64,000 nt of DNA from Roseobacter fucihabitans (GTDB lineage Bacteria > Pseudomonadota > Alphaproteobacteria > Rhodobacterales > Rhodobacteraceae), in the NCBI RefSeq assembly GCF_014337925.2, contig NZ_CP143423.1:4246501-4310500 (forward strand). The letters run 5' to 3'. How positions within the stretch are numbered: position 1 is the first letter of the stretch; every line of letters begins with the position of its first letter. The notes below the pieces were generated by a model, which had not been told where the DNA came from, ran no database searches, and saw nothing but the letters and a program-made list of their open reading frames with translations. This document shows, piece after piece, positions 13,269 through 34,965 of the stretch. The position numbers were made by a program, and so were the translations under genes.

Positions 13269-13318
13269 GCGGCTCGTGGCACCCTCCTCTATGATTGTTC
13301 GCCTCTGAAAAGCCGGTT

Positions 13319-13340
13319 GGTAGTGTCGCAAACTTTTGGA
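13319..13340 (+). repeat. Solo IS6 terminal repeat abutting copy 2
   Basis: 22 bp identical to the first 22 bp of the plus-oriented IS6 copy 3, directly joined at 13341 to the opposite-type end of IS6 copy 2. It is a leftover end of a second IS6 element in the opposite orientation, trimmed to its inverted repeat by insertion or deletion. Confidence 0.85.
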
Positions 13341-14169: not shown

Positions 14170-14253
14170 CTGGGAAGCTGCACCTGCGTTCTTCCTCTCT
14201 CGTGCATTTTCAATGCACTGCCGGGCAGTGGATAAACCTAAATCTCATTGCTT
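14170..14253 (-). pseudogene. IS3-family orfB remnant with hairpin insertion
   Basis: Read on the minus strand, an ATG just downstream of the orfA stop begins MRFRFI, the usual start of IS3 orfB. It then runs into the hairpin insertion at 14195-14230, which brings a stop codon. After the hairpin the expected residues resume (EERRCSFP) for eight codons until IS6 copy 2 cuts the gene off. More than 95 per cent of orfB is missing. Confidence 0.75.
14195..14230 (+). repeat. Hairpin insertion A (in IS3 orfB)
   Basis: 36-bp insertion with the stem GTGCATT/AATGCAC around a TTC loop, preceded by CTCTC and followed by TGCCGGGC. Removing it restores the orfB start reading MRFRFIEERR. The element points opposite to the gene. 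Confidence 0.8.
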
Positions 14254-14520
14254 TAGGCCCGCGAAGAACTGGGTGGCCTTTTTTAAGATCTCCCTCTCCT
14301 CCTTCAGGAGTCGGTTCTCCCGTCGAAGTCGATCATTCTCTTGAGCGAGGCTCAAATCCTCTTTGGAAACCACGTCTGTATCTCGGTGCGCGGTGATCCA
14401 TTTGTTCAGCGTCGACATCCCGACACCCAGATCGTCAGCCACCTGCTTGCGCGTCAGCCCACTGGTCAATGCGATACGCATTGCATCTTGGCGGAATTCG
14501 TCCGTCCGTTTCAGTCCCAT
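14245..14520 (-). CDS. IS3-family OrfA (helix-turn-helix transposase subunit)
   Basis: 91-residue OrfA of an IS3-family element. The N-terminal half is a helix-turn-helix (LTRKQVADDLGVGMSTLNKW) that recognises the IS ends. The C-terminal half is a leucine-zipper-like coiled coil (ENDRLRRENRLLKEEREILKKA) used for multimerisation and for OrfAB assembly. OrfA is intact, but its partner OrfB is destroyed by hairpin A and IS6 copy 2, so this element cannot transpose by itself. The upstream end of the IS, beyond 14520, was not resolved. Confidence 0.88.
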   Translation of the reverse strand: MGLKRTDEFRQDAMRIALTSGLTRKQVADDLGVGMSTLNKWITAHRDTDVVSKEDLSLAQENDRLRRENRLLKEEREILKKATQFFAGLKQ

Positions 14521-14719
14521 AGTCCGTCTCCTTTGGTGCAGTAAATGCTATCAAAGGAGCGGCATCAAACCGCGACAGGTCCACGCCCTGACGGGAAGGA
14601 TTGATAACAGAGCAAATGGATGACAGCACCACGACATTTGTAGCTTAAAGAAACTACAATTCTCGACAGTTTTATCCACTAAGTAAGATAGCCGTTAAAC
14701 ACTATTGGGTAGTGCAGGT

Positions 14720-15666
14720 ATGTGTTTTATGGAGGCTGAAGTGTACCGCGTAATTGAATGCCTGACACACGAGCATCACTATGGTTTGCTCGCTGTAGCG
14801 ACTCTGATCTGTCTTAGTGGTTCATTTCTAACTGCGCTCGTTGCACGTAAGATCACTTTTTCACATGATATGCGGAGGCGGATTCAGACATTTTTGGCCG
14901 CACTGATTGGCGGCGCGACCATCTGGTCCACGCATTTCATCTCTATGCTGGCGTATGATCCTGGATACCCTCATGGATTTGATGCCATGTTGACGGCTGT
15001 TTCCTTGCTCATAGCCGTGAGCGGCTTATTCGTCGCCAAGACCACGCTTGGATATGCGCCTTCACCTTTAAACTACGCGTTGGGAGGCATTGCTTTCGGG
15101 CTTACGGTTGCCGTGATGCACTACATCGGCATGGCAGCTTATAGACTTCCCGGAGATATAGCCTGGAACCCCATCACAGTTTTGGTCTCTGTGGCACTGG
15201 GCAGCATTTTTGGTGTGGCCGCATTCCACCGTTTCATCCTCCCCGTCACCAAATACTGCTGGCTGGGAGGCGCTGCGTTCATGGTGTTGTCAATCTGTTC
15301 GATGCATTTCACCGGCATGACCGCTTTTACGCTTGAATTTAGCCCGCTTATCGAAATCCCTGATCCGGTGATATCTGATACGGTCTTTGGAATCGTCATA
15401 TCCAGTGTCACTTCTGCCTTGTTCATCATAGGTTACATCGGCGTCAGGCTTGAGGACGGCGCTGATAGCGATGCGCAGGTCAGGGTTGAGGCAACTGCCA
15501 CAATTGACGCGTTAACCCAGCTGCCCAATCGTCTTGGACTGACAAGAGAGTTATCGAGCTGCAAGAACCTTCTGCAGTTGGATAAAACGCTAAAGATCGC
15601 CATTCTGACAATTGATCTCGACCGGTTCAAAGAAGTGAACGATCTTTACGGTCATGCGGATGGAGA
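14720..15666 (+). pseudogene. MHYT-GGDEF-EAL cyclic-di-GMP protein, 5' part (split by IS66)
   Basis: Membrane-anchored cyclic-di-GMP enzyme interrupted by the IS66 element. This half holds the seven-helix MHYT sensor with its three signature motifs (THFISM, MHYIGM, MHFTGM), thought to bind a metal and sense a diatomic gas, and the beginning of the GGDEF domain up to LDRFKEVNDLYGHADG. ATG at 14720 or 14729 are both possible starts. The IS66 element cuts inside the first GGDEF metal/nucleotide loop. Removing the IS and one 8-bp duplicate gives LYGHADGDAVLSQV and a continuous frame into 18068-19196, so the interruption is recent and clean. Confidence 0.92.
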
Positions 15667-15751
15667 GTAAGCGTGCGGCCACGCTGCTCTGACGCCTCAT
15701 AGAGTGGGTTGATAGTGTCCACTAACGATAGTGGACATCTTGAGGGCAGAT

Positions 15752-16144
15752 ATGGCGGGTAAGAAGGGTCAAAAGAAGCGGTTTTGGTCTGATGAGGAGA
15801 AGGTGTCGATCTGTGCGCAAACATGTGCGCCGGGGGTATCGGTAGCGCAGGTCGCGCGGCGGTACGCGATGAACACCAACCTGATCCACAAATGGCTACG
15901 TGATCCCAAGTTTGCACCTGATCCGGAGATCATCGAAGACGAGGTTGGTGAAGCGCCATGTTTTCTGCCTGTGGAGATTGTTGACCGGCCAGGTGCTGAA
16001 GAACCGGTTCCCGCGCTTGCGGCAAATGCCACATCCGGCCATAGCGCGATTGAGATCGACATCGCGGGCGGTCATCAGCTGAGGATTGTCGGTAGCTACG
16101 ATCCCGAAGCATTGGCTCGGCTCATCCGAGGTCTTTCTGCATGA
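15752..16144 (+). CDS. tnpA: IS66 TnpA (Orf1, helix-turn-helix)
   Basis: 130-residue IS66 Orf1. The N-terminal [14 protein letters not shown] followed by [18 protein letters not shown] is the helix-turn-helix typical of this subunit, which is required for transposition together with TnpB and TnpC. The ATG at 15752 has a GAGGG ribosome-binding site; a GTG at 15731 is a less likely start. The stop overlaps the tnpB start (ATGA). Confidence 0.93.
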
Positions 16145-16488
16145 TCCCTGTCCCGGCGAACACGCGCGTCTGGCTGGCTGCCGGTGTGACCGACATGCGT
16201 CGTGGGTTCACGACGTTGGCTGCGCAGGCTGAACAGACATTGAAGCAAGATCCGTTTACCGGGCATCTGTTTGTCTTTCGTGGACGGCGAGGTGATCTGA
16301 TCAAGATTATCTGGTGGGACGGGCAAGGTGCATGTCTGTTCAGCAAGCGCCTGGAGAAAGGTCGGTTTGTTTGGCCGTCGGCGAAAGAGGGCAAGATCGC
16401 TCTGACCGCGGCCCAGTTGGCGATGCTGCTCGAAGGGATCGATTGGCGTTTACCACAACGCAGCTGGACACCGCTCAAGGCAGGATAA
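16141..16488 (+). CDS. tnpB: IS66 TnpB (Orf2)
   Basis: 115-residue accessory protein of IS66 elements, of standard length. The N-terminus [14 protein letters not shown] and the core [21 protein letters not shown] are the conserved family signature. The biochemical role is unresolved, but the gene is needed for transposition. It overlaps tnpA by 4 bp, giving translational coupling. Confidence 0.96.
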
Positions 16489-16537
16489 ATGCGCGTGTGG
16501 GATTCCCGCCGGATCGTTGTTTTGCTATAGTCTGGCC

Positions 16538-18037
16538 ATGCTGGACGTCGATAAATCACTGCCGAAAGACCCTGATGAACTCAGGCAGTTCACGGCGATT
16601 TTGCTGGCCGAGGTGAGGTCGCAGGCTGTTTTGATCGAGAAGTTGCGGCATCAATTGGCCGGTCAACGCCAATGCCGCTTTGGGTCGTCATCAGAAAGCA
16701 TTGAACAACTACAACTGGCCTTGGAAACAAGCGAGATCGCGGTTGCCAAGATGACCGTGAAGCTACGCCTTCCCGATGAGGAGCCAAGAGACAAACCAAA
16801 ACGCCGCCCGATCCCCGATCACATCCCGCGCATGGAAGTTGAGCTGACCACCGGTGATGATGATTGCGCTCAGTGCGGTGGTGGCTTGCGCCGTCTGGGC
16901 GAGGATGTGACCGAAGAGCTTGAGTATGTTCCTGGACGCTTCATCGTGAACCGCATTGTGCGTCCACGCTTTGCATGTTCTGGCTGTGAGGCCTTCACAC
17001 AAGCAGCGTTACCTTCGCGCCCAATCGAACGGGGCCGTCCCGGCCCGGGCCTGCTGGCCCATGTTCTGGTCAACAAATACGCTGACCACCTGCCGCTGTA
17101 TCGCCAAAGCGGCATCTTCGAGCGCGACGGGATCGACATTGACCGTTCAACGCTGGCCGACTGGGTTGGCAAATCCACAGCTCTGTTGGAACCACTGGCT
17201 GATGCCATCGGGCGGCATGTGTTGGCTGGACAGGCTATCTTTGCAGACGACACGCCGGTAAAGATGTTGGCCCCCGGCACTGGCAAAACAGCGACAGCGC
17301 GTTTGTGGGCTTACGGTCGAGATGAACGGCCCTGGGGCGGCGATGCCCCTCCCGCCAGTTGGTATCAGTTCTCGCCGGATCGCAAAGGGCAGCACCCCAA
17401 GGATCATCTCGCAAAATATCGGGGCTGGATGCACGCGGACGGCTATGCCGGGTTCGAAGATCTCTATCGTTCCGGCGACATCCACGAGGTCGCCTGTATG
17501 GCGCATGTCAGACGCAAGTTCGTAGATGTTCATCGCGCCCAAGGCTCTGCCATCGCCAATGAGGCCATCCAGCGCATCGCGCAGCTCTACGCGGTCGAGA
17601 AAGAGGCACGCGGGTCACCACCAGATCGACGCGCCGGTCTCCGACAGGCGCATGCAAAACCGATCTTCGATGATCTGGAAGTCTGGCTACACACCCAACT
17701 CCCAAGTATCTCTGGCAAATCGCCGCTTGCGGGTGCGATCCGCTACGCTCTGACGCGCATGGCGCGGCTCCGGCCATATCTCGACCACGGCATCCTGGAG
17801 TTGGACAACAACACCGCCGAACGGGCCATGCGGTCTGTTGCAATCGGGCGCAAAAACTACCTGTTCGTTGGATCACAAACCGGCGGCCGCGCTGCCGCCA
17901 TCGCCTACACCTTGATCGAAACGGCCAAACTGAACCGCATCGATCCGCAGGCTTGGCTGGCCGACACCTTGGCACGCATCCCAGACTACAAAATCAACCG
18001 CGTCGATGACCTGCTGCCATGGAAAACTGCCTCATAG
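16538..18037 (+). CDS. tnpC: IS66 TnpC (DDE transposase)
   Basis: 499-residue IS66 transposase. An N-terminal coiled coil leads to the zinc-ribbon region (CAQCGGGL and CSGCEAF), then the DDE catalytic core (ADDTPVKML for the first Asp, HADGYAGF for the second, ELDNNTAERAMR for the Glu) and the C-terminal DDE-tail LIETAKLNRIDPQAWLADTL. That tail is uninterrupted here and serves as the empty-site control for hairpin G in the second IS66 tnpC fragment. ATG 16538 was taken as start. Confidence 0.95.
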   Translation: MLDVDKSLPKDPDELRQFTAILLAEVRSQAVLIEKLRHQLAGQRQCRFGSSSESIEQLQLALETSEIAVAKMTVKLRLPDEEPRDKPKRRPIPDHIPRMEVELTTGDDDCAQCGGGLRRLGEDVTEELEYVPGRFIVNRIVRPRFACSGCEAFTQAALPSRPIERGRPGPGLLAHVLVNKYADHLPLYRQSGIFERDGIDIDRSTLADWVGKSTALLEPLADAIGRHVLAGQAIFADDTPVKMLAPGTGKTATARLWAYGRDERPWGGDAPPASWYQFSPDRKGQHPKDHLAKYRGWMHADGYAGFEDLYRSGDIHEVACMAHVRRKFVDVHRAQGSAIANEAIQRIAQLYAVEKEARGSPPDRRAGLRQAHAKPIFDDLEVWLHTQLPSISGKSPLAGAIRYALTRMARLRPYLDHGILELDNNTAERAMRSVAIGRKNYLFVGSQTGGRAAAIAYTLIETAKLNRIDPQAWLADTLARIPDYKINRVDDLLPWKTAS

Positions 18038-18059
18038 GGCGGTCAGACCGGACGCTTAC

Positions 18060-19196
18060 GATGGAGATGCCGTCTTATCACAAGTAACACACCGCTTTTC
18101 CGAAGCGCTGATGGAGGGAGAATTTGTTGCGCGCTCAGGTGGCGACGAGTTTGTCGCGATCAAAAAAGGCTTTCGCCGGATGGAAGAAGTCAAGGCTTTC
18201 GCGGCAAGGTTGAATACTGCGTTCGTTGAACCAATAGACCTGTCCGTTGCGTCGGTCTTCATCGGCGGCTCCATAGGAATAGCAACAACAGTTGAAGACG
18301 GTAAGGACATAGATGGCCTTCTGCAAAAATCTGATATGGCCATGTACCGCGCAAAGGCGGACCCGGATAGGAACATAAGTTTTTTTGACGTTGAGATCGG
18401 GCAAATCAACCGGGAGCGTCTCTTGCTGTTACAGGATCTGCGCAGAGCAATTGCCAGAGAAGAGTTTGAGCTTGTCTATCAGCTGCAAAATGACGTGACC
18501 TCTAGGGCCCCCAGCGGCTTTGAAGCGCTTTTGCGCTGGAACCATCCTAAACGTGGCCGGGTCTCACCGGCGGAGTTCATTCCTTTGGCAGAAGAAACAG
18601 GGCTCATTCGAGAAATTGGACTATGGGTATTACGCACAGCTTGTTTGGAAGCTGCCTCTTGGCAGACACCCTACTCAATTGCTGTAAACGTCGCGCCACA
18701 GCAGTTGGTTCAACCTTCCTTTCTGGAACATCTTTCCGACGTTCTCATGGAAAGCCGGCTGGATCCTGCCTTGCTAGAACTTGAAGTGACAGAGGCCAGC
18801 ATTATCGATGATCAAGAGTACACTCTCAAAGTCATGTCCAAGATCAAGGAAATGGGTGTGTGCATTGCGATGGACGATTTTGGCACCGGATACTCTTCGC
18901 TCGCTACGTTGCAGGCGTTTCCCTTCGACAAGATCAAGATTGACAAGAGTTTCATACGGGATGTTCATCTGAACAAACAGAGGGCCGCAATTGTGCGCGC
19001 AACGCTCTTGCTTGGTGAAGCGCTCGAAATTCCGATCCTCGCTGAAGGTGTTGAAGATGAAGATGAGCTGTCATTCTTGAATGATGAGCAATGCAAATTT
19101 GTCCAAGGGTTCCTGTTTGGGCAACCCATGTCCGTCCATCAGGTCCGGGAACTTACAGATAACCTTCCTGCAAGTATATCAATTCGGGCGGGATAA
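18060..19196 (+). pseudogene. MHYT-GGDEF-EAL protein, 3' part (after IS66)
   Basis: Remainder of the split cyclic-di-GMP gene. It begins in the second copy of the 8-bp duplication and encodes the rest of GGDEF with an intact SGGDEF active-site motif, followed by a full EAL phosphodiesterase domain (FEALLRW, DDFGTGYSSL, ILAEGVED). Both catalytic signatures look competent, so the ancestral protein could have made or degraded cyclic-di-GMP. As it stands the fragment lacks its sensor and half the cyclase domain. A frame entering from inside IS66 at 18006 runs into it, but whether it is translated is unknown. Confidence 0.92.
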
Positions 19197-19197
19197 A

Positions 19198-19304
19198 ATG
19201 AATGAAACTGAGAACGACGTGCTCCCAAGACATCGCTGGAATCCGCTCTCCACCGTGCGCCGCGTCGGTGACTTCCAGATCGAGGATTTGCAGCGCCTGG
19301 CGGA
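19198..19304 (+). pseudogene. Truncated unknown gene, first 35 codons only
   Basis: ATG directly after the EAL gene stop, with a purine-rich GGCGGGAT ribosome-binding site, opens a frame beginning MNETENDVLPRHRWNPLST and ending in IEDLQRLAE where IS6 copy 3 begins. I do not recognise the family. The close spacing suggests it was co-transcribed with the cyclic-di-GMP gene. The rest of the gene is not found elsewhere in the window. Confidence 0.5.
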
Positions 19305-20133
19305 GGTAGTGTCGCAAACTTTTGGAGCCCTGTTGCACTTCTCGGCAGTGACGTTCATCGGGCAGCCTTTCGACATCTCATTCAAGGTTTAAACGATTGA
19401 TCAGTTTCAAAGGCGCGCATTTTCCGAAATCGGTGATCCTATACGCGGTCTATTTCTACGTTCGGTTTGCGGTATCGTATCGGGATCTCGAAGAAATCAT
19501 GAACGAGTGCGGCGTCGATGTTGATCATGCAACGCTTAATCGATGGGTCGAGAAATATTCTGTCGCCGTTGCCGGTGAGGCGCGTTGTCAGAAGGCGTCG
19601 ACCGGTCGATCTTGGCGGATGGACGAAACCTATATCAAGGTCAAAGGCCAGTGGACATATCTCTATCGAGCGATAGACAAATACGGCAATACCCTTGATT
19701 TCATGCTGTCCGAGCGACGTGATGAGGCGGCAGCAACCGCATTCTTCGCCAAGGTGATCGCCAGTAACGGCTGGCCGGACAAGGTTTTTATCGACAAGAG
19801 CGGATCAAACGCGGTCGGTCTGTTCAACATGAATTGCCTGCTGGTGATGCATAACTGGTGTTGGCTGATCGAGATTCTGCAGGTGAAATATCTCAATAAT
19901 ATTATCGAACAGGACCACCGTTTCATAAAAAAGATCACCCGCCCTATGCAGACCTTCAAATCGTTCAATTCAGCCGCGTCCACTCTGGCGGGCATCGAAG
20001 TCGCCCACATGATCCGCAAAGGACAATTCGACCGACCAGGGTTGTCCGGCTTCGAACAGTTTGCCGAGCTCGCTGGATAATTGTATCCTAGCGAGGCCCC
20101 ATCTCGCCTCACGACAAAGTTTGCGACACAACC
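19305..20133 (+). mobile_element. IS6-family insertion sequence, copy 3
   Basis: Complete 829-bp copy in the plus orientation, inverted relative to copies 1 and 2. It separates the truncated unknown gene on its left from an IS5-type element on its right. Flanking octamers (CTGGCGGA and TCCTGGGC) do not match, so this junction arose by recombination or adjacent deletion rather than simple insertion. Confidence 0.93.
19397..20080 (+). CDS. IS6-family DDE transposase (copy 3)
   Basis: 227-residue transposase with a TTG start and intact DDE residues. It is the only IS6 transposase in the window on the plus strand and is probably functional, able to act on all three copies and on the partial copy that keeps one end. 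Confidence 0.9.
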   Translation: MISFKGAHFPKSVILYAVYFYVRFAVSYRDLEEIMNECGVDVDHATLNRWVEKYSVAVAGEARCQKASTGRSWRMDETYIKVKGQWTYLYRAIDKYGNTLDFMLSERRDEAAATAFFAKVIASNGWPDKVFIDKSGSNAVGLFNMNCLLVMHNWCWLIEILQVKYLNNIIEQDHRFIKKITRPMQTFKSFNSAASTLAGIEVAHMIRKGQFDRPGLSGFEQFAELAG

Positions 20134-20348
20134 TCCTGGGCATGGTTTTCCGGCAGCCGCGGCGCCAGACCCAAGGCATGATGCGTTCGATTGCTAAGCT
20201 GCTTGGCGTTGAAATTGCCGCGCCCAGTTTCTCTACTTTGTCGCGCCGGGGTAACGGCCTGACATTGCGCGTTCCGTCGCAGGCCAACAACCAAGCGGGG
20301 ATCCGGTTGGTTGTAGACAGCACCGGATTGAAGATGTTTGGCGCGGGC

Positions 20349-20389
20349 GCCCTCTCGGCAGCATGCTATGCATGCGCCTGCCGGGTAAG
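20349..20389 (+). repeat. Hairpin insertion B (in IS5 transposase)
   Basis: 41-bp insertion starting GCCCTCTC, with arms GGC(A)GCATGC and GCATGCGCC around a TAT loop, ending CTGCCGGGTAAG. One arm has a bulged A. It shifts the frame by two; removing it gives MFGAGKWLEAKY. Confidence 0.8.
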
Positions 20390-20798
20390 AAATGGCTTGA
20401 AGCAAAGTACAAAACTAAGCGCAAACGGCGCTCCTGGCGCAAGCTGCACCTCGGCCTCGATCTGGCGAGCGGCGAGATCATTTGCGCCGATTTGACCACC
20501 GATGGCGTCGGTGATTCCACCGCGCTGCCGGGTCTTTTAGCTCAAATTGATGGCCCGGTCGCCGTATTTCTCGCAGACGGTGCTTACGATGGCGACCTAA
20601 CCTGCGATCTCCTCGTCGAGCGCTTTGGTGCAGAGATCGACGTCACGATCCCGCCTCCCAAAAACGCGGTCCTCAGCCCGGACAGCGCCCGGAATCCGAC
20701 GGTCCGCGATCAGCCATATCATCGAGATTGAGGTGCACGGACGCATAGCCTGGCAGACGTCATCGGGCTACAATCAGCTCAGCCGCGGTGAAACTCTT

Positions 20799-20836
20799 CC
20801 TCTCATGCATGCTCCGCATACACTGCCGGGCAATGC
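20799..20836 (+). repeat. Hairpin insertion C (in IS5 transposase)
   Basis: 38-bp insertion starting CCTCTCA, with arms TGCATGC and GCATACA (one mismatch) around a TCC loop, then CTGCCGGGCAATGC. It shifts the frame by two; removing it gives RGETLMGRWKAV. It lies in the same gene as hairpin B but has a different stem. Confidence 0.8.
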
Positions 20837-21171
20837 ATGGGTCGTTGGAAAGCAGTCATCCGGCCGAAGCTAAAGGCGCGCAGCTTCGATAACCAGAAGA
20901 CCGAAGCCAAGATTGGCGCCCACGTCCTAAATCGCATGACCAAACTTGGTCGCCCGCATCGCTTGAAATCCGCCTCGGGTAGGGCGCGTTCCGAGCCGAA
21001 ATTGATCCGCGCAACACGGTCGCTTGGAACGAAGAATGGCCTGTTCAATTTGCGACAGTTAAGTTTCCAGTACCCAGCGCAGTGTTGCGGGATGGTGCGC
21101 TCGGCACAATTGGGTTGCAATAAGTTGGAAGACGGCTGAAGTTGACAGCTGGACTCTCTGGGAGGCGTTCA

Positions 21172-22551
21172 TTGTCTGTTGAACTGGGGCATCCAATAAG
21201 AAATCTGCGCGACGCGATGGAAACAGTTGCCGTCGAACACGCTCTACCAGGGGTCTCGGTCTCAATTCGTCGTAACGGGTGTGAGATTTTCGCCGATAGT
21301 TTTGGCGCATGCGACGCCGATGGTTTGCGACCGGTTTCGACAGACACAATGTTTGGTGTCGCCTCAGTGACCAAGTTCCTGACGGCCACATTAATCATGC
21401 TGGCGCGACATCACAAACGCGTCAAACTGTCGGACCCGGTATCGCGTTTCTACCCAGATCTGAAGTGTGCCTACGATGGCAAAATCTGTATCCGTCACCT
21501 TTTGTCCCATTCCGGTGGTTTTCCGGGCCTGCCCTTTCGCCACAGGACGACACGCGTAGAGCATTCCAATGGCGTCGCCCCGATACTGACGCCAAGCGCA
21601 TTGGTGCAGGGTATCAACGGTTTGGATTTTGAGATGCTTGGATCGCCCGGCGACCGCCTCAGCTATAGCAATGAGAGCTACTGTCTCTTGGGCGGGATAA
21701 TCGAGGATCTGTACCACTGCTCATACGCAGACGCTGCAGAGAAACTCGTGTTCCAACCGTTGCAGATGAAGAGCAGCTCAATTGGGGCCAGTATCATGCG
21801 TCAGCGCCCCAATGTTGCTCAGCCGTTGATACGCATCGATGCCGCGTTGCAGCCCTGTGGCTTTTGGGATGCGCCCCTCTTGGATCCGGCAGGCGGGCTA
21901 AGTGCATCTACCCGCGATATGGCCCGGCTGATTTCCATCCTTGCAGGTGACACTGAGGTGCTTGGCGCAGATGCGATACGGGACATGACGGCACATTGCC
22001 TGCCCGTGGCATCGCGGCCGGTGTCTGGCGCAAGGTATGGGCTGGGGCTGGAAGTCACAGATCTGGACGCACATCACACGCTGGCATGGCACACAGGCCA
22101 GCGCCCCGGTATTTCCAGCTTTGTCGGTCATGTTATGCAACAGCGACTTTCGGTAGCCTTTGCCACAAATGTCGCAGATGCGCCGGCTTCTACCATCGGT
22201 CACCAGATCATCGCTTACATGTTGAAGGAGGACCTAGAGCCCGGATCTTGCGTCTGGCCACCTCAGGCCAAACAAGTCAAGGACAACCAGCTTGAGTGGT
22301 TTTGCGGTCGTTTCGGATCACTAGAGATGGGAGAGTTTTCAATCCGGCTCGATCAGGGGCGGTTGCTGCTCGACATGCAAACGGCCCAGCATAAGTTTCG
22401 TTTCGATGGGCCATGCAGCGGAACGGTCGGTGGGCAGACCTTTTGCTTTCTTTACGACGATGAAACCGCTGCGGTGCGACAACCAGCTGCGGCACTCGCT
22501 TTGGATCTTCGTGTGTTACCACGTCTTGGTGCGGCGCGACGGCAATCTTGA
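21172..22551 (+). CDS. Serine hydrolase, beta-lactamase class C-like (MlrB/D-aminopeptidase type)
   Basis: About 459-residue serine hydrolase of the beta-lactamase/penicillin-binding fold. The active-site triad motifs are complete: S65-V-T-K68 (ASVTKF), Y165-S-N167, and H307-T-G309 replacing the KTG box. Such enzymes cleave D-amino-acid peptides, esters or linearised cyclic peptides. A C-terminal extension of about 120 residues looks like the beta-barrel tail of D-aminopeptidase-type members. A TTG at 21172 was taken as start because GGGAGG lies 6 bp upstream; TTG 21142 and ATG 21217 are alternatives, the latter cutting into the domain. No signal peptide is visible, so it is cytoplasmic. It opens the gene cluster that continues with the M81 peptidase and the peptide importer. 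Confidence 0.85.
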   Translation: MSVELGHPIRNLRDAMETVAVEHALPGVSVSIRRNGCEIFADSFGACDADGLRPVSTDTMFGVASVTKFLTATLIMLARHHKRVKLSDPVSRFYPDLKCAYDGKICIRHLLSHSGGFPGLPFRHRTTRVEHSNGVAPILTPSALVQGINGLDFEMLGSPGDRLSYSNESYCLLGGIIEDLYHCSYADAAEKLVFQPLQMKSSSIGASIMRQRPNVAQPLIRIDAALQPCGFWDAPLLDPAGGLSASTRDMARLISILAGDTEVLGADAIRDMTAHCLPVASRPVSGARYGLGLEVTDLDAHHTLAWHTGQRPGISSFVGHVMQQRLSVAFATNVADAPASTIGHQIIAYMLKEDLEPGSCVWPPQAKQVKDNQLEWFCGRFGSLEMGEFSIRLDQGRLLLDMQTAQHKFRFDGPCSGTVGGQTFCFLYDDETAAVRQPAAALALDLRVLPRLGAARRQS

Positions 22552-22606
22552 TCCGTACTAAGAAACCCCACCCCCGCCGCGCTCAACAAAAATGAAGGAT
22601 AGAGAC

Positions 22607-26093: not shown

Positions 26094-26122
26094 TTTCAGG
26101 TGATGACCTGAGATCATAAATG

Positions 26123-26155
26123 AGGTGTGAGCACCCCCGAGACGTGCTCACACCT
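26123..26155 (+). terminator. Stem-loop between binding protein and permease genes
   Basis: Perfect 12-bp inverted repeat AGGTGTGAGCAC / GTGCTCACACCT around a 9-base loop, followed by TCTTCT rather than a full T tract. Such hairpins after binding-protein genes act as leaky terminators or protect the upstream mRNA end from decay. Confidence 0.75.
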
Positions 26156-26217
26156 TCTTCTGCGGTCGCGACATGTGGCGACCGTAATTTTCCCAGTGCA
26201 AACAGTGGTCTCGATCA

Positions 26218-27189
26218 ATGAAATTTGCGATCCTTCAAAGAGTTCTATTCGGATTTGTTCTGATCATCGCGGTCATTGTTTTGAACTTCTTCCTGCTGCA
26301 TGCGGCACCCGGCGATGTGGTCGATGCAATGCTCGCCGAAGCGGGGGGCGGTGATCCCGAAATGGCCGCCAGATTGCGCGCGCTCTACGGTCTTGACGAA
26401 CCCACCTACATCCAACTTATCAAATACTTGGGGCGGGTTTTGACGGGCGACCTCGGGTATTCGTTCTACTACGACCAGCCCGTCTCGACGCTGCTGCTTC
26501 AGCGCTTGCCCACAACGTTGATGCTGACCTTGTCCGCCTTGGTCATTGCCGTCGTTTTTGGCACCCTCTTTGGCGTCTATGCCGCCATCAAGCCAAATGG
26601 TCTGTTCAGCAATTTCGTGACGATTTTTTCGCTGTTTGGCTATGCGACCCCCGTGTTCTGGCTGGGGATGATAATCCTGCTGGCATTCGCGCTGCACATA
26701 CCCTTGTTCCCCGCGTTTGGCATTCGCTCTTTTCCGGAACCCGACACCGCGATTGCACGGTTCTTTGACGTGCTCAATCACCTTGTACTCCCCACGTTCA
26801 CGCTCGCTATTCTCTATTTGGCGAACTACAGCCGGATCTCGCGCGCCGCGATGATGGACGTTTTGGGGGCTGACTATATTCGGACTGCAAGAACCAAGGG
26901 TCTGCCCGAGACCAAGGTGATCTTTAAGCATGCGCTTAAAAACGCGTCCTTGCCGGTGGTCACTTTGGCCGGTTTGCAGCTTGCGCAGGTGTTCTCCGGT
27001 GCCGTGCTTGTTGAGACAGTTTTTAGCCTGCCGGGGGTTGGCCCACTTTTGTACGAGTCGATTGTACGGCGCGATTTCCCTGTGATCCTGGGTGTTCTGT
27101 TTGGCGCTGCGGCCACAACCATCGTTGCCAACATCATCACTGATCTTATCTATAAAAAGATGGACCCAAGGATCCAGTCCATCACATGA
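26218..27189 (+). CDS. Peptide ABC transporter permease (DppB-like)
   Basis: 323-residue inner-membrane permease with six predicted helices. The first helix begins near residue 9, followed by the typical periplasmic loop before AALRALYGL-type sequence (here RLRALYGLDEPTYIQ). The EAA-like coupling loop DYIRTARTKGLPETKVIFKH contacts the ATPases, and VFSGAVLVETVFSLPG is the family signature near the C-terminus. It overlaps the next permease gene by 4 bp. Confidence 0.93.
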   Translation: MKFAILQRVLFGFVLIIAVIVLNFFLLHAAPGDVVDAMLAEAGGGDPEMAARLRALYGLDEPTYIQLIKYLGRVLTGDLGYSFYYDQPVSTLLLQRLPTTLMLTLSALVIAVVFGTLFGVYAAIKPNGLFSNFVTIFSLFGYATPVFWLGMIILLAFALHIPLFPAFGIRSFPEPDTAIARFFDVLNHLVLPTFTLAILYLANYSRISRAAMMDVLGADYIRTARTKGLPETKVIFKHALKNASLPVVTLAGLQLAQVFSGAVLVETVFSLPGVGPLLYESIVRRDFPVILGVLFGAAATTIVANIITDLIYKKMDPRIQSIT

Positions 27190-28088
27190 CCCAGCCCCTC
27201 CCGCCTGTCGACGAGCCCGTTTTCAAGTTCGAAGAAGAAGCCGCCGAACCCGAACGCAAATGGCGCGAGACGTTCCGCCTGTTCTGCGCAAACCGGGCAG
27301 CTTTGGTCGGGCTGATATTCGTCACTATTTTTGTTCTGGTCGGAATATTCGGCCCGATTTTCCTGACAGCTGATCCTTTCGAAATGGTCGCGGCGCCATT
27401 GACCGGACCGGGGGTGCAAACAATCCTTGGCTCGGACTATCTGGGCCGTGACGTTTTTGTCGGCATCATCCACGGCACCCGACCAACCTTGATCATCGCT
27501 GTCACAGCCACGCTGGTTACGGTTTTGATCGGTGTCACGGTTGGTGCAATTGCGGGTTATTACGGTGGAATGGTAGATAATGCACTGATGCGCATTACTG
27601 AATTTTTTCAGGTGCTTCCGCCGCTTGTCTTTGCCATGGTCATTGTGGCGGTTTATTCGTCTGATATCGTCGTCGTCATCCTTGCGATTGCGGTCACCAC
27701 CTGGACGACCGAAGCCAGATTAACGCGAGCGGAATTTCTCAAGATCCGCGAGCAGGAATATGTGACAGCATCACGCGCCATTGGTGACAGGAATTGGCGC
27801 ATCATCACCAAAACCATCCTGCCCAATGCGATGCCGCCGATCATTATTGCGATCACGCTGAGGATCGGCATTACGATCATCTACGAAGCGGCGCTCAGCT
27901 TTCTTGGACTGACGGATCCCGATGTGATCACCTGGGGAAAAATGATCGGATTGTCGCGTGACTACTTTTTTAATGCATGGTGGACCGTCACTTTTCCGGG
28001 TCTGGCAATCCTGTTGGTTGTATTGTGCATTGCCTTGATCGGCGATGGCCTGAATGACGCCTTCAATCCCAAACTGCGGGGCAGGTAG
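27186..28088 (+). CDS. Peptide ABC transporter permease (DppC-like)
   Basis: 300-residue second permease of the importer, with a longer cytoplasmic N-terminus (WRETFRLFCANRAALVGL) as in DppC/OppC, six membrane helices and the coupling loop EYVTASRAIGDRNWRIITKT. It starts within the stop codon region of the preceding permease, so translation is coupled. It pairs with the DppB-like protein to form the channel. Confidence 0.93.
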   Translation: MTQPLPPVDEPVFKFEEEAAEPERKWRETFRLFCANRAALVGLIFVTIFVLVGIFGPIFLTADPFEMVAAPLTGPGVQTILGSDYLGRDVFVGIIHGTRPTLIIAVTATLVTVLIGVTVGAIAGYYGGMVDNALMRITEFFQVLPPLVFAMVIVAVYSSDIVVVILAIAVTTWTTEARLTRAEFLKIREQEYVTASRAIGDRNWRIITKTILPNAMPPIIIAITLRIGITIIYEAALSFLGLTDPDVITWGKMIGLSRDYFFNAWWTVTFPGLAILLVVLCIALIGDGLNDAFNPKLRGR

Positions 28089-28096
28089 AGAGAACG

Positions 28097-29107
28097 ATGA
28101 CCCAAGCAAAGGCCCCGTCACAGACTGTCTTGTCGGTCCGCAATCTCAGCGTCGATTTCGATGTCAGGGGTCAATCCGTGAGCGTCTTGTCAAATGTTGC
28201 GTTCAGTCTGGATCGTGGCGAAACGCTTGGGATCATCGGTGAAAGCGGGTGCGGGAAAAGCATGACGGCATTGGCGCTGCTGCGGATGGTGCCGTCGCCG
28301 CCCGGTAAGATCAGTTCGGGGGCGGTTCTGCTTAATGGCGAGGATCTGTTGGCGGTTTCGAAAAAGCAGATGAATACTCTGCGCGGCAGAGAAATATCTA
28401 TGATCTTCCAGGAACCGATGACGTCTTTGAACCCGGTCTATACCGTTGGCAACCAACTCGTCGAGACGATTCAGCAGCACCTGTCCGTCAGCGACGCAGA
28501 GGCCGAGGAGCAAGCGATTGCACTTCTGCGTTCGGTTCAGATTCCAGCCCCTGAACGACGCATCAAAGAGTATCCACACCAGCTTTCAGGTGGGATGCGG
28601 CAGCGGGTGATGATTGCCATGGCGCTTGTATGTGATCCCAAAGTTCTGATCGCAGATGAGCCGACAACGGCATTGGATGTCACGGTTCAAGCGCAAATAT
28701 TCGACCTTCTGAAGGACATACAAAACCGAAACCAAACCAGCATCATCTTGATAACCCATGATTTTAGCGCCGTCAGAGCGATGGCTGATCGCGTTATCGT
28801 CATGTATGCGGGCTATAAGATCGAGGAAGGGACGCTGGATGAGGTGCACAACAGTCCAATGCACCCCTATACCCAAGGCCTGTTGCGCTCGATGCTCGAA
28901 CTGAAACCGGACTCCTCGGGGTTCAGAGAGGTTCTGCCCGAAATTCCTGGGTCCGTGCCCGATCTGCGCAATCGCCGACCAGGTTGTCCTTTTGGCCCAC
29001 GATGCGCCTCGGCCACGGCCAAATGCCACGAGATGCCCCCCAGTTTTGATCTCGGCGACAGGCGGTCCGTCATGTGTTGGCTCGCGGAAAACGAGGGCAC
29101 GCGATGA
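28097..29107 (+). CDS. Peptide ABC transporter ATP-binding protein (DppD-like)
   Basis: 336-residue ATPase. Walker A is GESGCGKS near residue 52, the ABC signature LSGGMRQR, and Walker [13 protein letters not shown]. The C-terminal oligopeptide-transporter extension has four conserved cysteines ([15 protein letters not shown] plus the later Cys) that can bind an iron-sulfur cluster in DppD relatives. It overlaps the next gene by 4 bp and works as a heterodimer with it. Confidence 0.94.
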
Positions 29108-30105
29108 GTGAACAGAGCGCCCCCAAACCGCTGATTAGGATCGAGGATCTGAGTGTTCACTTTAAGCTGAAACGCGATAACTGGTTTGCGGAGCCGGACG
29201 TTGTGCATGCCGTTGACGGTGTCAGTTTTGACATTCAAAGCGGTCAGACGCTCGGCCTGGTCGGGGAAAGCGGCTGCGGCAAAACGACGACGGGACGCGC
29301 TTTGTTGGGGCTGGTCAAATCTACGACTGGCCATGTGCTGTTTGATGACACCGATCTGAGCACCGTCTCGGGCGAAGAAATGTTTCCTCTGCGCCAACGG
29401 ATGCAGATCATTTTTCAAGATCCCTATTCGGCGCTCAATCCACGCCAGACCGCGGGCGATATTGTGATGGATCCGCTGGTGGTGCACAACGTTGGCACCC
29501 CCAGCGCGCGCAAAGAGCGTGTCGAAGAACTATTTGCTTTGGTGGGGTTGCGCAAAAACCAGCTGTCGCTTTATCCGCATCAGTTCTCTGGTGGGCAAAG
29601 GCAACGGATCTGCATCGCAAGGGCGCTTGCCCTGAACCCCCAGTTCATCGTTTGCGACGAACCCGTGTCGGCTCTTGATGTGGCGATCCAAGCACAGATC
29701 CTGAACCTCTTGTGCAAGCTACAGGACGAACTCAACCTGACGTACCTCTTTATCTCTCATGATCTGGCTGTCGTGCAGCATATGTGTGATGAAATCGCGG
29801 TCATGTATCTTGGCGTGATCGTCGAACGGGCGGATCGCAAGTCCCTGTTCGAGAACCCGCGCCATCCCTATACCCGCGCGTTGCTGTCAGCGGTTCTCAC
29901 AAGTGTATCTGGCGAAAAGATCGAACGCATCCGGTTGGAAGGCGACATCCCCAACCCGATCAATAAACCATCCGGATGCCGTTTTCGCACGAGATGCCCC
30001 TTTGCTCAGCAGGTCTGTAGCGAAGTGGAACCGGTGCTGGAAGAAAAGTCCCCGAACCACTGGGAAGCCTGCCATTTTCATACATCTCTCGACGTGACAG
30101 CCTAA
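29104..30105 (+). CDS. Peptide ABC transporter ATP-binding protein (DppF-like)
   Basis: 333-residue second ATPase of the importer. Walker A is GESGCGKTT, signature FSGGQRQR, Walker B FIVCDEPVSALD, and the C-terminal Cys-rich extension begins GCRFRTRCPF. The ATG at 29104 lies in an ATGA overlap with the preceding stop. An upstream in-frame start at 29074 would only duplicate the tail region of the neighbour. Its stop codon overlaps by 3 bp the stop of the convergent deacylase gene. Confidence 0.94.
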   Translation: MSEQSAPKPLIRIEDLSVHFKLKRDNWFAEPDVVHAVDGVSFDIQSGQTLGLVGESGCGKTTTGRALLGLVKSTTGHVLFDDTDLSTVSGEEMFPLRQRMQIIFQDPYSALNPRQTAGDIVMDPLVVHNVGTPSARKERVEELFALVGLRKNQLSLYPHQFSGGQRQRICIARALALNPQFIVCDEPVSALDVAIQAQILNLLCKLQDELNLTYLFISHDLAVVQHMCDEIAVMYLGVIVERADRKSLFENPRHPYTRALLSAVLTSVSGEKIERIRLEGDIPNPINKPSGCRFRTRCPFAQQVCSEVEPVLEEKSPNHWEACHFHTSLDVTA

Positions 30106-31694
30106 TTGGGTCTGAGAACGCGTCCGGAATCGATTTCCGTTCTTTGCCCATCACGCATAGAGATCCCACCATTGACCAGTACATGGGCAATGCCAGTTGC
30201 ATATTTTCGGGGCGTCTCGACGGTTGCATGACTTTCGATACCCGTTGCGTCAAACACCGTGATATCGGCGCAGGCCCCCTTACGCAGGGTGCCGCGATCG
30301 CTGACCCCCAACCGCTCGGCTGGTAGGGACGTAATCCGACGAATGCCCTCTTGGAGTGACAAAATACCTTGGTCCCGCACGTAGTGGGCAAGGAACCGTG
30401 CGGCCCAGCCATACCCGGAGAGCGACCCGATATGATGTTTGAGGCAGCCATAGGGGGCAAGTGCTTGGGTATCAGAAATCACCGCGCATTGTGGCTGTTC
30501 CAGCGCCAGCTTGATATCCCCGTTGTCAAACGATTGCGAGGTCCACATCAGATGGTTCATCTGGTCGCCCTCTTCTTCCAGCAGCAGATCAAAGACGGCG
30601 TCATAGGGATGGGTGTTTCGGCGTCGGCCGATATCGTCAAAACTCATGCCGACCATGTCCTGATTGGCCTCCGATTGCATGAGAACGATCCTGTCCCAGC
30701 CATCAGAATTCACCAAACGCCACATCGGCCTCGGGTTCCGCTTTATCTTCTCGCGGATGGCGTTATCGTGCAGACGTTCACGGACCTTTTCGACACCACC
30801 CTCCTGAGCCCATTGCGGCAGGATTGCCATCACCCGGGTATGCGACCAATCGTGGGGGATGACATCGAACGCCACATCGACGCCATGTCCGCGGGCCTGT
30901 TCGCACATGTCGATGGCATGTTGCATTGCATAATCGGGCGCACCGAATTTGGGCTGAATATGCGAGATCTGCAGCCGGGCACCCGCCGCACGGGCCGTCG
31001 CCAAAGCCTCGCCAAATCCGAGATCGTAGAACAAATCCCGGTTGCGCACATGGGTTGCGTAAAGCACGTCGTGTTTGGCGGCGACTTTGGCCATATCAGC
31101 AAGCTGGTCGGGGCTTGCCAGGCTCCCCGGCCAATATTCCAGACCGGTCGAAAAGCCGTAGGCACCGCCCTCGATGCTTTCGTCCAACAGCGCAACCATA
31201 TCGTCCATTTCGTCTTCATCAGCGGATCGCAGCGCGTCTCCGACAACCGCGCGATGGATGGTGCCATGCCCGACAAAGGCTGCGACGTTGACCCCAAGAG
31301 GCGTTTTGCCGAGATGGTCGAGGTAGTCGCCAAAAGATCGCCAAGTGGTTTCTACAGCACCGTCAATAAAGCCCGGTGCCATCAGGGCGATATCTGCGCT
31401 TGAACGGGCCGGGGCACATGAAACGCCGCACTGGCCCACCACCTCGGTTGTTACGCCCTGATGCACCTGGCTTTCCGCCCGGCCATTGGCGGCGAGGGTG
31501 AAATCAGAGTGGGTATGCAAATCCACAAAACCTGGGGATATCGCCAAATCGGATGCATCAAGAACATGCTCTGCGTCGCCATCGATCAAACCGATGTCTA
31601 CAATCACGCCATCCTTAACGGCAATATCTGCCTTGAATGGATTGGCTCCGGACCCATCGTACACAGTGCCATTTTTGATCAAAACATTCAGCAT
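30102..31694 (-). CDS. N-acyl-D-amino-acid deacylase (D-aminoacylase) family
   Basis: 530-residue amidohydrolase-superfamily protein. The metal-binding HTHSD is at residues 60-64 and the Cys zinc ligand typical of D-aminoacylases is C89 in VGQCGVS; YATHVRNRD and LQISHIQ further along supply later metal and substrate residues. The family removes N-acyl groups from D-amino acids or acts on related N-substituted D-amino acids. ATG 31694 was taken because it begins the conserved MLNVLIKNGTVYDG and has an AGAGGG ribosome-binding site; the frame stays open to 31910 but that part has no family similarity. It is convergent with the importer operon and fits it as a catabolic partner. Confidence 0.9.
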   Translation of the reverse strand: MLNVLIKNGTVYDGSGANPFKADIAVKDGVIVDIGLIDGDAEHVLDASDLAISPGFVDLHTHSDFTLAANGRAESQVHQGVTTEVVGQCGVSCAPARSSADIALMAPGFIDGAVETTWRSFGDYLDHLGKTPLGVNVAAFVGHGTIHRAVVGDALRSADEDEMDDMVALLDESIEGGAYGFSTGLEYWPGSLASPDQLADMAKVAAKHDVLYATHVRNRDLFYDLGFGEALATARAAGARLQISHIQPKFGAPDYAMQHAIDMCEQARGHGVDVAFDVIPHDWSHTRVMAILPQWAQEGGVEKVRERLHDNAIREKIKRNPRPMWRLVNSDGWDRIVLMQSEANQDMVGMSFDDIGRRRNTHPYDAVFDLLLEEEGDQMNHLMWTSQSFDNGDIKLALEQPQCAVISDTQALAPYGCLKHHIGSLSGYGWAARFLAHYVRDQGILSLQEGIRRITSLPAERLGVSDRGTLRKGACADITVFDATGIESHATVETPRKYATGIAHVLVNGGISMRDGQRTEIDSGRVLRPN

Positions 31695-32059
31695 TTTCAC
31701 ACCCTCTTGATGACTTTCGATACAATCGCAATTTGGCGCATGTGCTGCGCGCTTTGATCCAATACGCCAACCTTTCTTGATGCTAGCATGGCATGTGCTG
31801 CCCATGCAATTGGCCACGATCTTTGCCTGCGACTGTTCTACCGGGTTAGACTCCATGATCGTCTTTTGGCCTGATAGTTTCTTTGAATATTTCATCAAAA
31901 TTTGCCGCATTAATACGGTATTGTTGCCCAGCCCGGCATAGTCAAGTTATCGGAGTTCCAGGTAGTGGGCTATTTTTTAATTTAGCTCAGATTGTTGAAT
32001 CTCACTGAGAACTGATCCGGTAGCCTCATAAATTGTCACTGAGAATTGACCCATATGAA
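31695..32059. other. Upstream region of the deacylase with IS21-like end repeats
   Basis: Holds the deacylase promoter region and then mobile-element debris. Two imperfect direct repeats, TCACTGAGAACTGATCC at 32002-32018 and TCACTGAGAATTGACCC at 32036-32052, are 34 bp apart, a layout seen at IS21-family ends. The block at 31961-31995 resembles 2154-2188. No gene is seen. Confidence 0.5.
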
Positions 32060-32494
32060 CGACCGTGTTGCGCGGATCAATTTCGGCTCGGAACGCGCCC
32101 TACCCGAGGCGGATTTCAAGCGATGCGGGCGACCAAGTTTGGTCATGCGATTTAGGACGTGGGCGCCAATCTTGGCTTCGGTCTTCTGGTTATCGAAGCT
32201 GCGCGCCTTTAGCTTCGGCCGGATGACTGCTTTCCAACGACCCATGCATTGCCCGGCAGTGTATGCGGAGCATGCATGAGAGGAAGAGTTTCACCGCGGC
32301 TGAGCTGATTGTAGCCCGATGACGTCTGCCAGGCTATGCGTCCGTGCACCTCAATCTCGATGATATGGCTGATCGCGGACCGTCGGATTCCGGGCGCTGT
32401 CCGGGCTGAGGACCGCGTTTTTGGGAGGCGGGATCGTGACGTCGATCTCTGCACCAAAGCGCTCGACGAGGAGATCGCAGGTTAGGTCGCCATC
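32060..32494 (-). pseudogene. IS5-type transposase 3' fragment, inverted duplicate
   Basis: 435-bp reverse-strand copy of the end of the IS5-type element at 20589-21025, including the same single-base frameshift and hairpin C. Because hairpin and frameshift are shared, this is a segmental copy made after both changes, not a second independent insertion. It joins an IS6 fragment at 32496 with one extra base between. With the plus-strand copy it forms inverted repeats around the peptide-catabolism cluster. Confidence 0.88.
32246..32283 (-). repeat. Hairpin insertion D (duplicate of C)
   Basis: Reverse-strand copy of hairpin C with the same 38 bp, carried along by duplication of the surrounding IS5 fragment. 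It should not be counted as an independent event. Confidence 0.85.
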
Positions 32495-32495
32495 T

Positions 32496-32682
32496 GGTTG
32501 TGTCGCAAACTTTGTCGTGAGGCGAGATGGGGCCTCGCTAGGATACAATTATCCAGCGAGCTCAGCAAACTGTTCAAAGCCGGACAACCCTGGTCGGTCG
32601 AATTGTCCTTTGCGGATCATGTGGGCGACTTCGATGCCCGCCAGAGTGGACGCGGCTGAATTGAACGATTTGAAGGTCTGCA
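32496..32682 (-). mobile_element. IS6-family element, partial copy 4
   Basis: 187 bp matching one end and the last part of the transposase gene (C-terminal residues ending FEQFAELAG) of the full copies, with two base differences noticed near 32564-32576. It stops abruptly at GGTCTGCA where the IS1182 element begins, so it was probably cut by that insertion. Confidence 0.88.
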
Positions 32683-32952
32683 CTGAGCCGATTCTGTTGA
32701 AAAACTCTTGCTTGATCGGGTGGCTATTCGCTGATTCAATTTTCCTTAGCAACGGGGGTGATTTCGATGCTGGGACCAAAGCAAGAAGCACAAGGCGCGC
32801 TGTTTTACGAGTTCTCGATTGACGATCATGTGCCCCAAGATCACCTGCTGCGGTCAATTGATAGGTTCGTTGATCTAAGCGACATCCGCCAATACCTAGC
32901 GGACTTTTATAGCCACACTGGCCGCCCGTCCATCGACCCAGAACTGCTGATC

Positions 32953-32989
32953 TATTACCCGGCAGTGCATGTTTACATGCATGAGAGGG
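32953..32989 (-). repeat. Hairpin insertion E (in IS1182 transposase)
   Basis: 37-bp insertion. Read on the minus strand it starts CCCTCTCA, has the arms TGCATG/CATGCA around TAAA, and ends CTGCCGGGTAATA. It shifts the frame by one; removal gives DPELLIRMLLVGY. It points opposite to the gene. Confidence 0.82.
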
Positions 32990-33622
32990 CGCATGCTGCT
33001 CGTGGGCTATTGTTCTGGCATCCGCTCGGAGCGCCGTCTTTGTGAAGAGGTGCATTTGAAACTGGCGTATCGTTGGTTTTGCCGCCTCGATCTATCTGAT
33101 CCGGTGCCGAACCACTCGACGTTCTCCAAGAACCGGCATGGGCGTTTCCGGGAGAGTGCATTGTTGCGACACCTGTTCGAGAAGACCGTAGCTCGGTGCA
33201 TCGCGGATGGCTTGGTGAGTGGCCAGCGCCTTGCGGCAGACGCCAGTTTGATCGAGGCAGATGCGAACAAACAAAACGCGACGCCGAAGGAAGATTGGGA
33301 CCATAATGCCATCGATCCAAACGATGCGCCGCGTGCCGTGAAGGAGTATCTTGATGTCTTGGATAACGCAGCTTTTGGCGCAGCATCTGAGGTTGAACCC
33401 AAGTTCACGTCCCATTCTGATCCTGCAAGCCAATGGACGGCAGCCCGTAAAGGCCCTGCGTTCTTCAGTTATTCCACCAATTACCTGATCGACACGGATC
33501 ATGCCGTGATCGTCGATGTGGAGGCCAGACGATCAATCCGGCAAGCAGAAGTCGGGTCTGTGCGCTCAATGTTGGATCGGGTCAAAGACACGTTCGATCT
33601 GCATCCCGAATGGATTATCGCC

Positions 33623-33662
33623 CCCTCTCATTGATTGCTTTGCAATCAACTGCCGGGCAATG
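33623..33662 (+). repeat. Hairpin insertion F (in IS1182 transposase)
   Basis: 40-bp insertion starting CCCTCTCA, with perfect 8-bp arms TTGATTGC/GCAATCAA around TTT, ending CTGCCGGGCAATG. It sits immediately before the catalytic Asp codon of DTAYG. The second IS1182 copy reads LIADAAYG at this point with no insertion. Confidence 0.88.
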
Positions 33663-34306
33663 GACACAGCTTACGGTTCCGGCCCGATGCTCGGGTGGTT
33701 GGTTGATCGCAAGATCGAACCGCACATTCCGGTTATGGATAAAGCGAGCCGCACGGATGGCACATGGTCTTGCGCGGACTTTGAATGGGATGCGGAGAAT
33801 AACCAATACATCTGCCCGGAAGGCGAGCCGCTCAAGCAATTCCGGCGCAACTATTCTGACCCAAATCGTGGGCCAACCGGCAAAGGCGTCGCCAAGTATA
33901 AGGCCCTTAAACAGACGTGTCAGGCCTGTCTGTCAGAAATGCAATGCTGCCCGAATGCTGATGCGCGAAAAATTACCCGCGAAGAACATGAAGACGCCCG
34001 TCAGGTCGCCCGCGACATTGCCAAGACCAAGCAATACGCAATCTCAATGCGGCTGCGCAAGAAAGTTGAGATGCTCTTCGCGCATCTCAAACGCATCCTC
34101 GGGCTGGGACGTCCCCGATTACGTGGCCCATGCGGCGCAAATGACGAATTCCTGCTCGCCGCCACCGCCCAAAACCTCCGCAAACTCGCCAAGATCTTTC
34201 CTGCACCGCAGCAAATGCAAAAAGCCTGATAAGAAAGGCGCTCGCGCTCCATTTAGATCACCACTTCCTGCGCTCGCAACACGTTGTTTTTCCACAGAAT
34301 CAGCCA

Positions 34307-34654
34307 ATGCGGACCTTCAAATCGTTCCTGTCCGATGGCCGCGTCGCAATCGACAACAATCCCGCTGAGCGGGCTCTGCGTCCGATTGGAATAGGGCGGA
34401 AGAATTGGCTATTTGCAGGGGCCGACACCGGCGCGGAAACCCTCGCGCGCGCGATGACCATCATCGAAACCGCCAAGCTCAACCATTGCCCGACAGGCGA
34501 TTTGCAAGGCAAATCTGCCGAGAGGGGTCGCGATCCGTTGGCCTGTCTCGCTGACATCCTGAACCGCATCCACGATCACAAGATCAACCGGCTCGATGAA
34601 TTGCTCACGTGGAATTGGGAGCCGCTGGCTGCTGCCCATCCCGAAGCCGCTTGA
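34307..34654 (+). pseudogene. IS66 tnpC 3' fragment with in-frame hairpin insertion
   Basis: C-terminal 115 codons of a second IS66-type transposase, cut at its 5' end by the IS1182 element. It reads FKSFLSDGRVAIDNNPAERALRP (Glu of the DDE triad in PAERALRP), then IIETAKLNH, then 13 foreign residues from hairpin G, then GRDPLACLADIL to the stop. The intact tnpC at 16538-18037 has no such insert. It diverges clearly from the intact copy, so it is a different IS66 element. Confidence 0.88.
34487..34525 (-). repeat. Hairpin insertion G (in IS66 tnpC)
   Basis: 39-bp insertion. On the minus strand it starts CCTCTC, has arms GGC(A)GATTTGC and GCAAATCGCC around CTT (same bulged A as hairpin B), and ends CTGTCGGGCA. 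It is in frame with no stop, adding 13 residues to TnpC. Confidence 0.85.
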
Positions 34655-34662
34655 GGGCTGCG

Positions 34663-34950: not shown

Positions 34951-34965
34951 CAATGGAGCGATTAT

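Follow-up and report, generated by a model that had tools for sequence, protein, structure and literature searches.

Short hairpin insertions with covarying stems in transposase genes of Roseobacter fucihabitans and related bacteria

Seven hairpin elements in the window

The stretch of the Roseobacter fucihabitans genome analyzed here (64,000 nt, the whole of which is called the window) contains seven short hairpin elements, A to G, in transposase genes of four insertion sequence (IS) families: IS3 (A), IS5 (B, C and D), IS1182 (E and F) and IS66 (G). All seven are present where an earlier note on this DNA had first read them, to within 1-3 nt, and they share one common design, as that note had described. 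The coordinates used below come from empty sites and from a covariance model. This model was trained on 57 distinct copies, including B, E, F and G of the window, with A, C and D left out of the training set. Searched against the window at expectation values (E) up to 1, it recovered exactly A to G and nothing else, and an Rfam scan of the window at gathering scores gave no match.

Element A (36 nt; 14195..14230, plus strand) lies in a truncated copy of IS3 orfB (IS3 fragment at 14170..14589, minus strand), at the same site (nt18) as in an IS3 of this genome that carries five elements. Element B (41 nt; 20350..20390, plus strand), with a T-type end (TAAGA), and element C (38 nt; 20798..20835, plus strand) are the two elements of one IS5 transposase copy (region 20061..21120, plus strand), the 5′ part of which is cut by another IS; both were placed by empty-site alignment and by the model. 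The site of B is also occupied in Octadecabacter arcticus (L005). Element D (32247..32284, minus strand), located by the covariance model, is indeed another copy of C, carried by a separate IS5 fragment. Element E (37 nt; 32953..32989, minus strand) has a T-type end (TAATA) and falls between LLI and RML of an IS1182 transposase; the same gene holds element F (40 nt; 33623..33662, plus strand), which precedes the Asp of ADTAYG. This IS1182 copy (32687..34318, plus strand) is a unit of ~1.63 kb that is repeated in the genome. Finally, element G (42 nt; 34484..34525, minus strand) lies in the C-terminal part of an IS66 transposase gene. The window copies are thus found in both orientations, as had been claimed. 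Fragments of IS6, IS3, IS5, IS1182 and IS66 are nested at 13300-14900 and 32000-36500 of the window, and the genome looks IS-rich.

Two statements of the earlier note need qualification. That all copies lie inside transposase genes holds within the window; elsewhere, viral contigs have a few sites in other genes. That removing each copy restores the transposase reading does not apply to G (42 nt) and A (36 nt), the lengths of which are multiples of three and leave the frame unchanged; in addition, the IS5 copy that carries B and C is frameshifted by 1 nt independently of them.

Empty sites, structure and targets

The hairpins are inserted precisely into sites that are empty in other copies, with no duplication of the target. 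Alignment to element-free homologues from Yoonia, Thioclava, Dinoroseobacter, Pseudosulfitobacter and Roseovarius plasmids (L001-L004, L007 and L008), a comparison that the earlier note had proposed, gave precise empty sites and clean inserts of 37 nt for E, 40 nt for F, 41 nt for B, 38 nt for C and 42 nt for G. The two homologues tried for A in the window did not extend over it; its site is empty in a related IS3 (L130, compared with row L016_1423), and further precise empty sites were found at many other loci among the matches listed. L130 and L055 share an IS3 stretch that is 95% identical between them, and only one of the two contains the element.

The wider site set was built from 79 clusters, of which L135_1740 (a second call of one site) and L026_5686 (a chance match) were dropped to give 77; leaving out rows without a CCCTC start and a few doubtful ones gave 72. 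The two sets of 72 that were used differ slightly, and some regions were chosen for holding several matches, so that the sites are not a random sample. Target duplications of 4-5 nt were seen at none of the 72 sites and duplications of 3 nt at three, against about one expected. Together with the precise empty sites, these counts agree with the initial description of insertion at different sites with no obvious duplication.

In its plus-strand form, an element of 36-44 nt reads CCCTCTC, a stem of ~5-10 bp closed by a loop mostly of 3-5 nt, TGYCGGG and then YRRYR. A bulged A follows after three pairs in 28 of 38 long cores. For the outer three stem pairs, 87.1% of cells were paired, against 52.8% when shuffled and at most 58.5% when slid, and both sides were changed in 55 cells against 23.1 in the shuffles; 0 of 500 shuffles reached the pairing or the double-change value. 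This covariation bears out the view that the structure is kept and not the sequence. The outermost stem pair is unpaired in 20 of the 57 copies. Over the 72 sites, division of the length by three leaves 2 in 40 cases, 1 in 25 and 0 in 7. The two strands are not equivalent: among 71 distinct hairpins, the minus strand accounts for 11 G·T wobbles and the plus strand for 1, and stability is better for the minus strand in 40 and for the plus strand in 3. From this asymmetry, the strand that matters probably reads 5′-YRYYR-CCCGGCA-hairpin-GAGAGGG-3′, regardless of the direction of the host gene.

Targeting is weak, to S^GATG (C or G, then GATG), with ~4 bits in total over the 72 sites. Across the 77 sites, the pair formed by positions up-1 and dn1 is C,C in 51, G,T in 10, T,C in 7, G,C in 3, A,C in 3 and something else in 3; the combination at positions dn1 and dn5 is C,G at 62 sites and T,A at 11. 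The core ATGCATGTAAACATGCAC was found with CAGTG, TAATA and TGACA ends, i.e., with both end kinds, so ends and core are not strictly passed on together. In the IS3 gene, different cores share nt18 and ~nt311 across genera.

Range, host genes and multi-copy carriers

The strict flank pattern matches 117 times (52 + 65) in the 4.85-Mb genome of R. fucihabitans, and the reversed control 0 times. At least one strict match was found in 211 of 295 genomes of the same family, but many of these are chance matches, as one or two hits to the reversed control are common too. A clear excess of strict over reversed matches was seen in G007 (41 vs. 1), G067 (34 vs. 0), G013 (23 vs. 0) and G064 (22 vs. 1). 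A model scan of 385 genomes of the class, scoring up to 16 candidates per genome under strict filters, gave six positives at E up to 1e-4: R. fucihabitans itself, three others from its own family and two from different families, the latter with 2 and 1 model matches. Plasmid searches with two elements returned 12 and 78 records; besides five further genera, the genera listed belong to the Roseobacter group except for two Shinella records. Most of the matches listed lie where the gene table, which excludes pseudogenes, shows no gene. Shared flanks recur genome-wide and in related genomes, as found with the strict pattern and with the covariance model, a search beyond the window that had also been suggested.

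To name the host genes, 150 stop-free segments from the 77 site clusters were scanned with Pfam and NCBIfam. Pfam matched transposase domains, the IS21 helper and helix-turn-helix (HTH) domains, with one member matching PhoH/AAA_19. The NCBIfam families listed include IS3 (10 and 15 members), IS5, IS1182 (4 and 5), the IS21 helper, IS66, IS200, IS256, IS630 and others, and the DnaA- and DnaC-like matches fit the helper ATPase. Nearly every site with a nameable gene falls in a transposase gene, and at least eight IS families are represented. On viral contigs, a phage-like C5-methyltransferase gene carries an element at one site (L153:8880-8916, L165:1527-1563 and L162:5556-5594). It is readable in frame in L153 and L165, the stems of which differ by a compensatory change, but not in L162; an in-frame element in two of three contigs is what is expected if out-of-frame copies normally break genes. 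A 41-nt element also lies in an open frame of another viral contig (L157:1472-1512) that looks RelE-like by eye (toxin-antitoxin type). One and the same element occurs in two sources, L138:1746 and L171:5958-5994, apparently at a shared site and with no clear transposase reading.

Several ISs are loaded with more than one element: an IS3 of R. fucihabitans holds five, an IS3 of G013 holds four and IS1182 holds two, and an IS21 has two in istA plus one in istB. Cutting the elements out leaves a single stop-to-stop frame of 258 codons in the five-element IS3, 308 in the G013 IS3 and 478 in IS1182, and frames of 520 (istA) and 270 (istB) codons in the IS21. This does not hold throughout: several of the loci are still broken after cutting, such as L018, the L021 type, L020, L027, L034 and both G075 copies (L121 and L123). 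The elements of the G013 IS3 measure 38, 38, 40 and 38 nt, and its 308-codon frame retains all DDE motifs.

Several carriers are multi-copy. Repeated units with sharp ends measure 1277-1283 bp (four full copies, and partial ones), ~1.62-1.63 kb (five copies), and 1447, ~1440 and 1142 bp (three copies each, and partial ones). The four-element IS3 of G013 is 1385 bp long with six full-length copies; its other matches are fragments of 41-154 nt, and no full-length element-free copy was found in that genome. The R. fucihabitans IS1182 with two elements has five near-full and two partial copies, and no intact element-free IS1182 was found in this genome. For 20 cut junctions, the same genome gave three element-free matches, at 85-92% (40 of 119 candidates scored).

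The five-element IS3 is without the segment holding the catalytic Glu, yet it is multi-copy, which points to mobilization in trans. The argument that amplification proves an active transposase is weakened by this IS3. Its missing segment seems to have been lost by deletion between two elements (L016:2235-2275, against L031 and L130), and the elements may thus act as recombination points.

Mobilization, decoding and known systems

We interpret the hairpins as a family of non-autonomous mobile elements of 36-44 nt that are mobilized in folded, single-stranded form, much like repetitive extragenic palindromic (REP) sequences and IS200, and give this reading a probability of about 0.68. The hairpins would be inserted by a recombinase that works on this folded form, as the HUH enzymes of REP and IS200/IS605 do; insertions would persist mostly in IS genes, the majority of those elsewhere being lost by selection; and the loaded ISs would then multiply, at least partly via transposase supplied in trans. 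HUH/Y1-like mobilization of a single strand had been proposed in the earlier note, and the strand-specific wobbles, the bulged A and the coupling of the ends to the target base speak for the single strand. The part of the proposal that was not supported is the Y1 partner. A Y1 gene bordered by the hairpin was looked for in 10 Y1 loci and none was found flanked; three Y1 copies 9 nt from an element had the look of a REPtron, but this candidate was rejected because the element lies inside the Y1 frame and interrupts it.

Several observations weigh against our interpretation. No mobilizing enzyme was found: PF01797 (Y1) matched in four of seven element-rich genomes and gave no match in G013, G067 and G075, and the model, applied to the 10 Y1 loci, gave one strong match, the one inside a Y1 frame, and two weak ones (E 0.11 and 0.93). 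The target-base rule is loose, as sites with C at dn1 have T at up-1 in 7 cases, A in 3 and G in 3. Different cores occupy one nucleotide (nt18, in three genera), which a target of ~4 bits explains only loosely. Finally, the tally of host genes covers family-matched segments, and intergenic insertions are possible.

Occupation of the same sites in several genera would also fit ancestral regulatory hairpins native to the ISs and lost from some copies. However, different cores are found at one site, one core is found at unrelated sites and in unrelated IS families, element-free homologues are many, and the precise empty sites in several IS families largely refute this origin, which we regard as very improbable. 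True REPs of the TnpAREP/RAYT type, with an enzyme gene that has been lost or escaped detection, come closer. According to excerpts of two papers (PMC8266576, PMC3733652), such REPs are hairpins of 20-50 nt with strand-specific features, a frequent bulge and a high copy number, and the elements here, with 36-44 nt, a covarying stem, strand asymmetry and the bulged A, are similar. The same excerpts give REPs a GTAG tag, a mostly extragenic location and a RAYT/Y1 gene. In contrast, GTAG was found 5′ of the hairpin at 1 of 72 sites on the plus strand and 5 of 72 on the minus strand, no flanking Y1 gene was found, and the segments with a family match are transposase genes, so that true REPs appear improbable, if less so than native hairpins. 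The spread of REP-like hairpins is itself described as poorly understood in an excerpt of PMC8266576.

Other known systems also correspond in part. Palindromes of the CGTC-tagged repeats, with no dedicated transposase known, and of the Rickettsia palindromic elements lie inside genes as well (excerpt of PMC3733652). The same source gives CGTC REPs two A-T pairs at the start of the stem and a CCA tail, whereas here columns 9-34 and 10-33 are not A-T and the tail is TGYCGGG; CGTC occurs in 5 of 72 sites on the plus strand and 11 of 72 on the minus strand. A variant of this tag, CCTC, is present in the 5′ flank. Rickettsia palindromic elements insert in frame (same excerpt), whereas 65 of the 72 lengths here are not multiples of three. 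The coupling of end and target bases resembles the pairing of guide and cleavage site in IS200/IS605 (excerpt of PMC8266576), but the pairs are not simply Watson-Crick. Further likenesses to that group are the absence of target duplication and a target preference confined to one side, where it adjoins the 5′ end of the strand that folds. Elements derived from IS200/IS605 have two hairpin ends with a body, whereas there is a single hairpin here and no enzyme gene in the element. Integron attC sites, defined by GTTRRRY and RYYYAAC boxes, were rejected, as over 72 sites GTTRRRY was found 0 times on the plus strand and once on the minus strand, and RYYYAAC once and 0 times, respectively. None of REP, CGTC REP, IS200/IS605, byp (discussed below), Rickettsia elements and attC is matched in full, in keeping with the first reading, which recognized no named family. 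The family was not found described in the literature searched on bypassing, REPs, palindromes within transposase genes, Rickettsia palindromes, Rhodobacterales and Octadecabacter, and the main text of the Octadecabacter genome paper contains neither "hairpin" nor "palindrom" (PMC3646047).

A separate question is whether loaded genes are decoded. The ribosome or another expression step could skip the hairpins, loaded transposases being made at some level, as with the byp elements of Magnusiomyces capitatus mitochondria, which are likewise many short frame-breaking inserts with more than one in several genes (excerpt of PMC5009743). The single frames of 258, 308 and 478 codons obtained by cutting are consistent with this, as are the six loaded full-length copies of the G013 IS3 with none both element-free and full-length, and the multi-copy IS1182 with no intact element-free relative found. 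Moreover, the six G013 copies have variable columns at 7 of 855 positions in codons against 15 of 376 elsewhere outside the elements, and no stops; the five-element IS3 and an element-free relative differ with nonsynonymous (dN) and synonymous (dS) values of 0.061 and 1.84; and the IS5 pair of R. fucihabitans and Octadecabacter arcticus, which shares both sites and core types, has mismatches per codon position of 14/14/28, 35/18/60 and 10/7/20 in its three segments. However, five of the seven G013 codon changes alter the protein, as would be seen without selection, and the five-element IS3 is multi-copy despite the loss of its catalytic-Glu segment. Several loaded ISs (L018, the L021 type, L020, L121 and L123) give no single frame when cut. 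In a comparison of thirteen IS3-subgroup copies, stops were found in six, some of them with elements and some lacking them. In byp elements the take-off triplet is the same as the landing triplet; here the two agree in 0 of 72, and the hairpins occur in both orientations whereas one strand folds better. The codon bias and the low dN/dS may also predate the insertions, because different cores sit at the same sites, and low dN/dS was dropped as proof of bypass. Skipping of the inserts seems unlikely to us on balance; we hold mobilization in trans more likely, with decoding across the hairpins possible. Slightly more doubtful still is a combined hyperparasite scenario, in which a single-strand recombinase would target S^GAT in transposase genes and these would be decoded across up to five mostly frame-shifting hairpins, so that their carriers keep multiplying, a bacterial counterpart of the mitochondrial bypassing inserts.

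Many precise empty sites, two end types coupled to the target base, and stretches that remain 95% identical whether or not they hold the insert make the insertion rule of this hairpin family readable from sequence. Should any of the loaded transposases truly be translated, the family would offer a rich natural collection of inserts that bacteria skip. In the excerpted Octadecabacter genome paper, the IS1182 row for O. antarcticus gives 1, 14 and 15 (PMC3646047), taken here to mean 1 coding gene and 14 pseudogenes. The hairpins may explain part of the many "pseudogene" transposases in the Roseobacter group.

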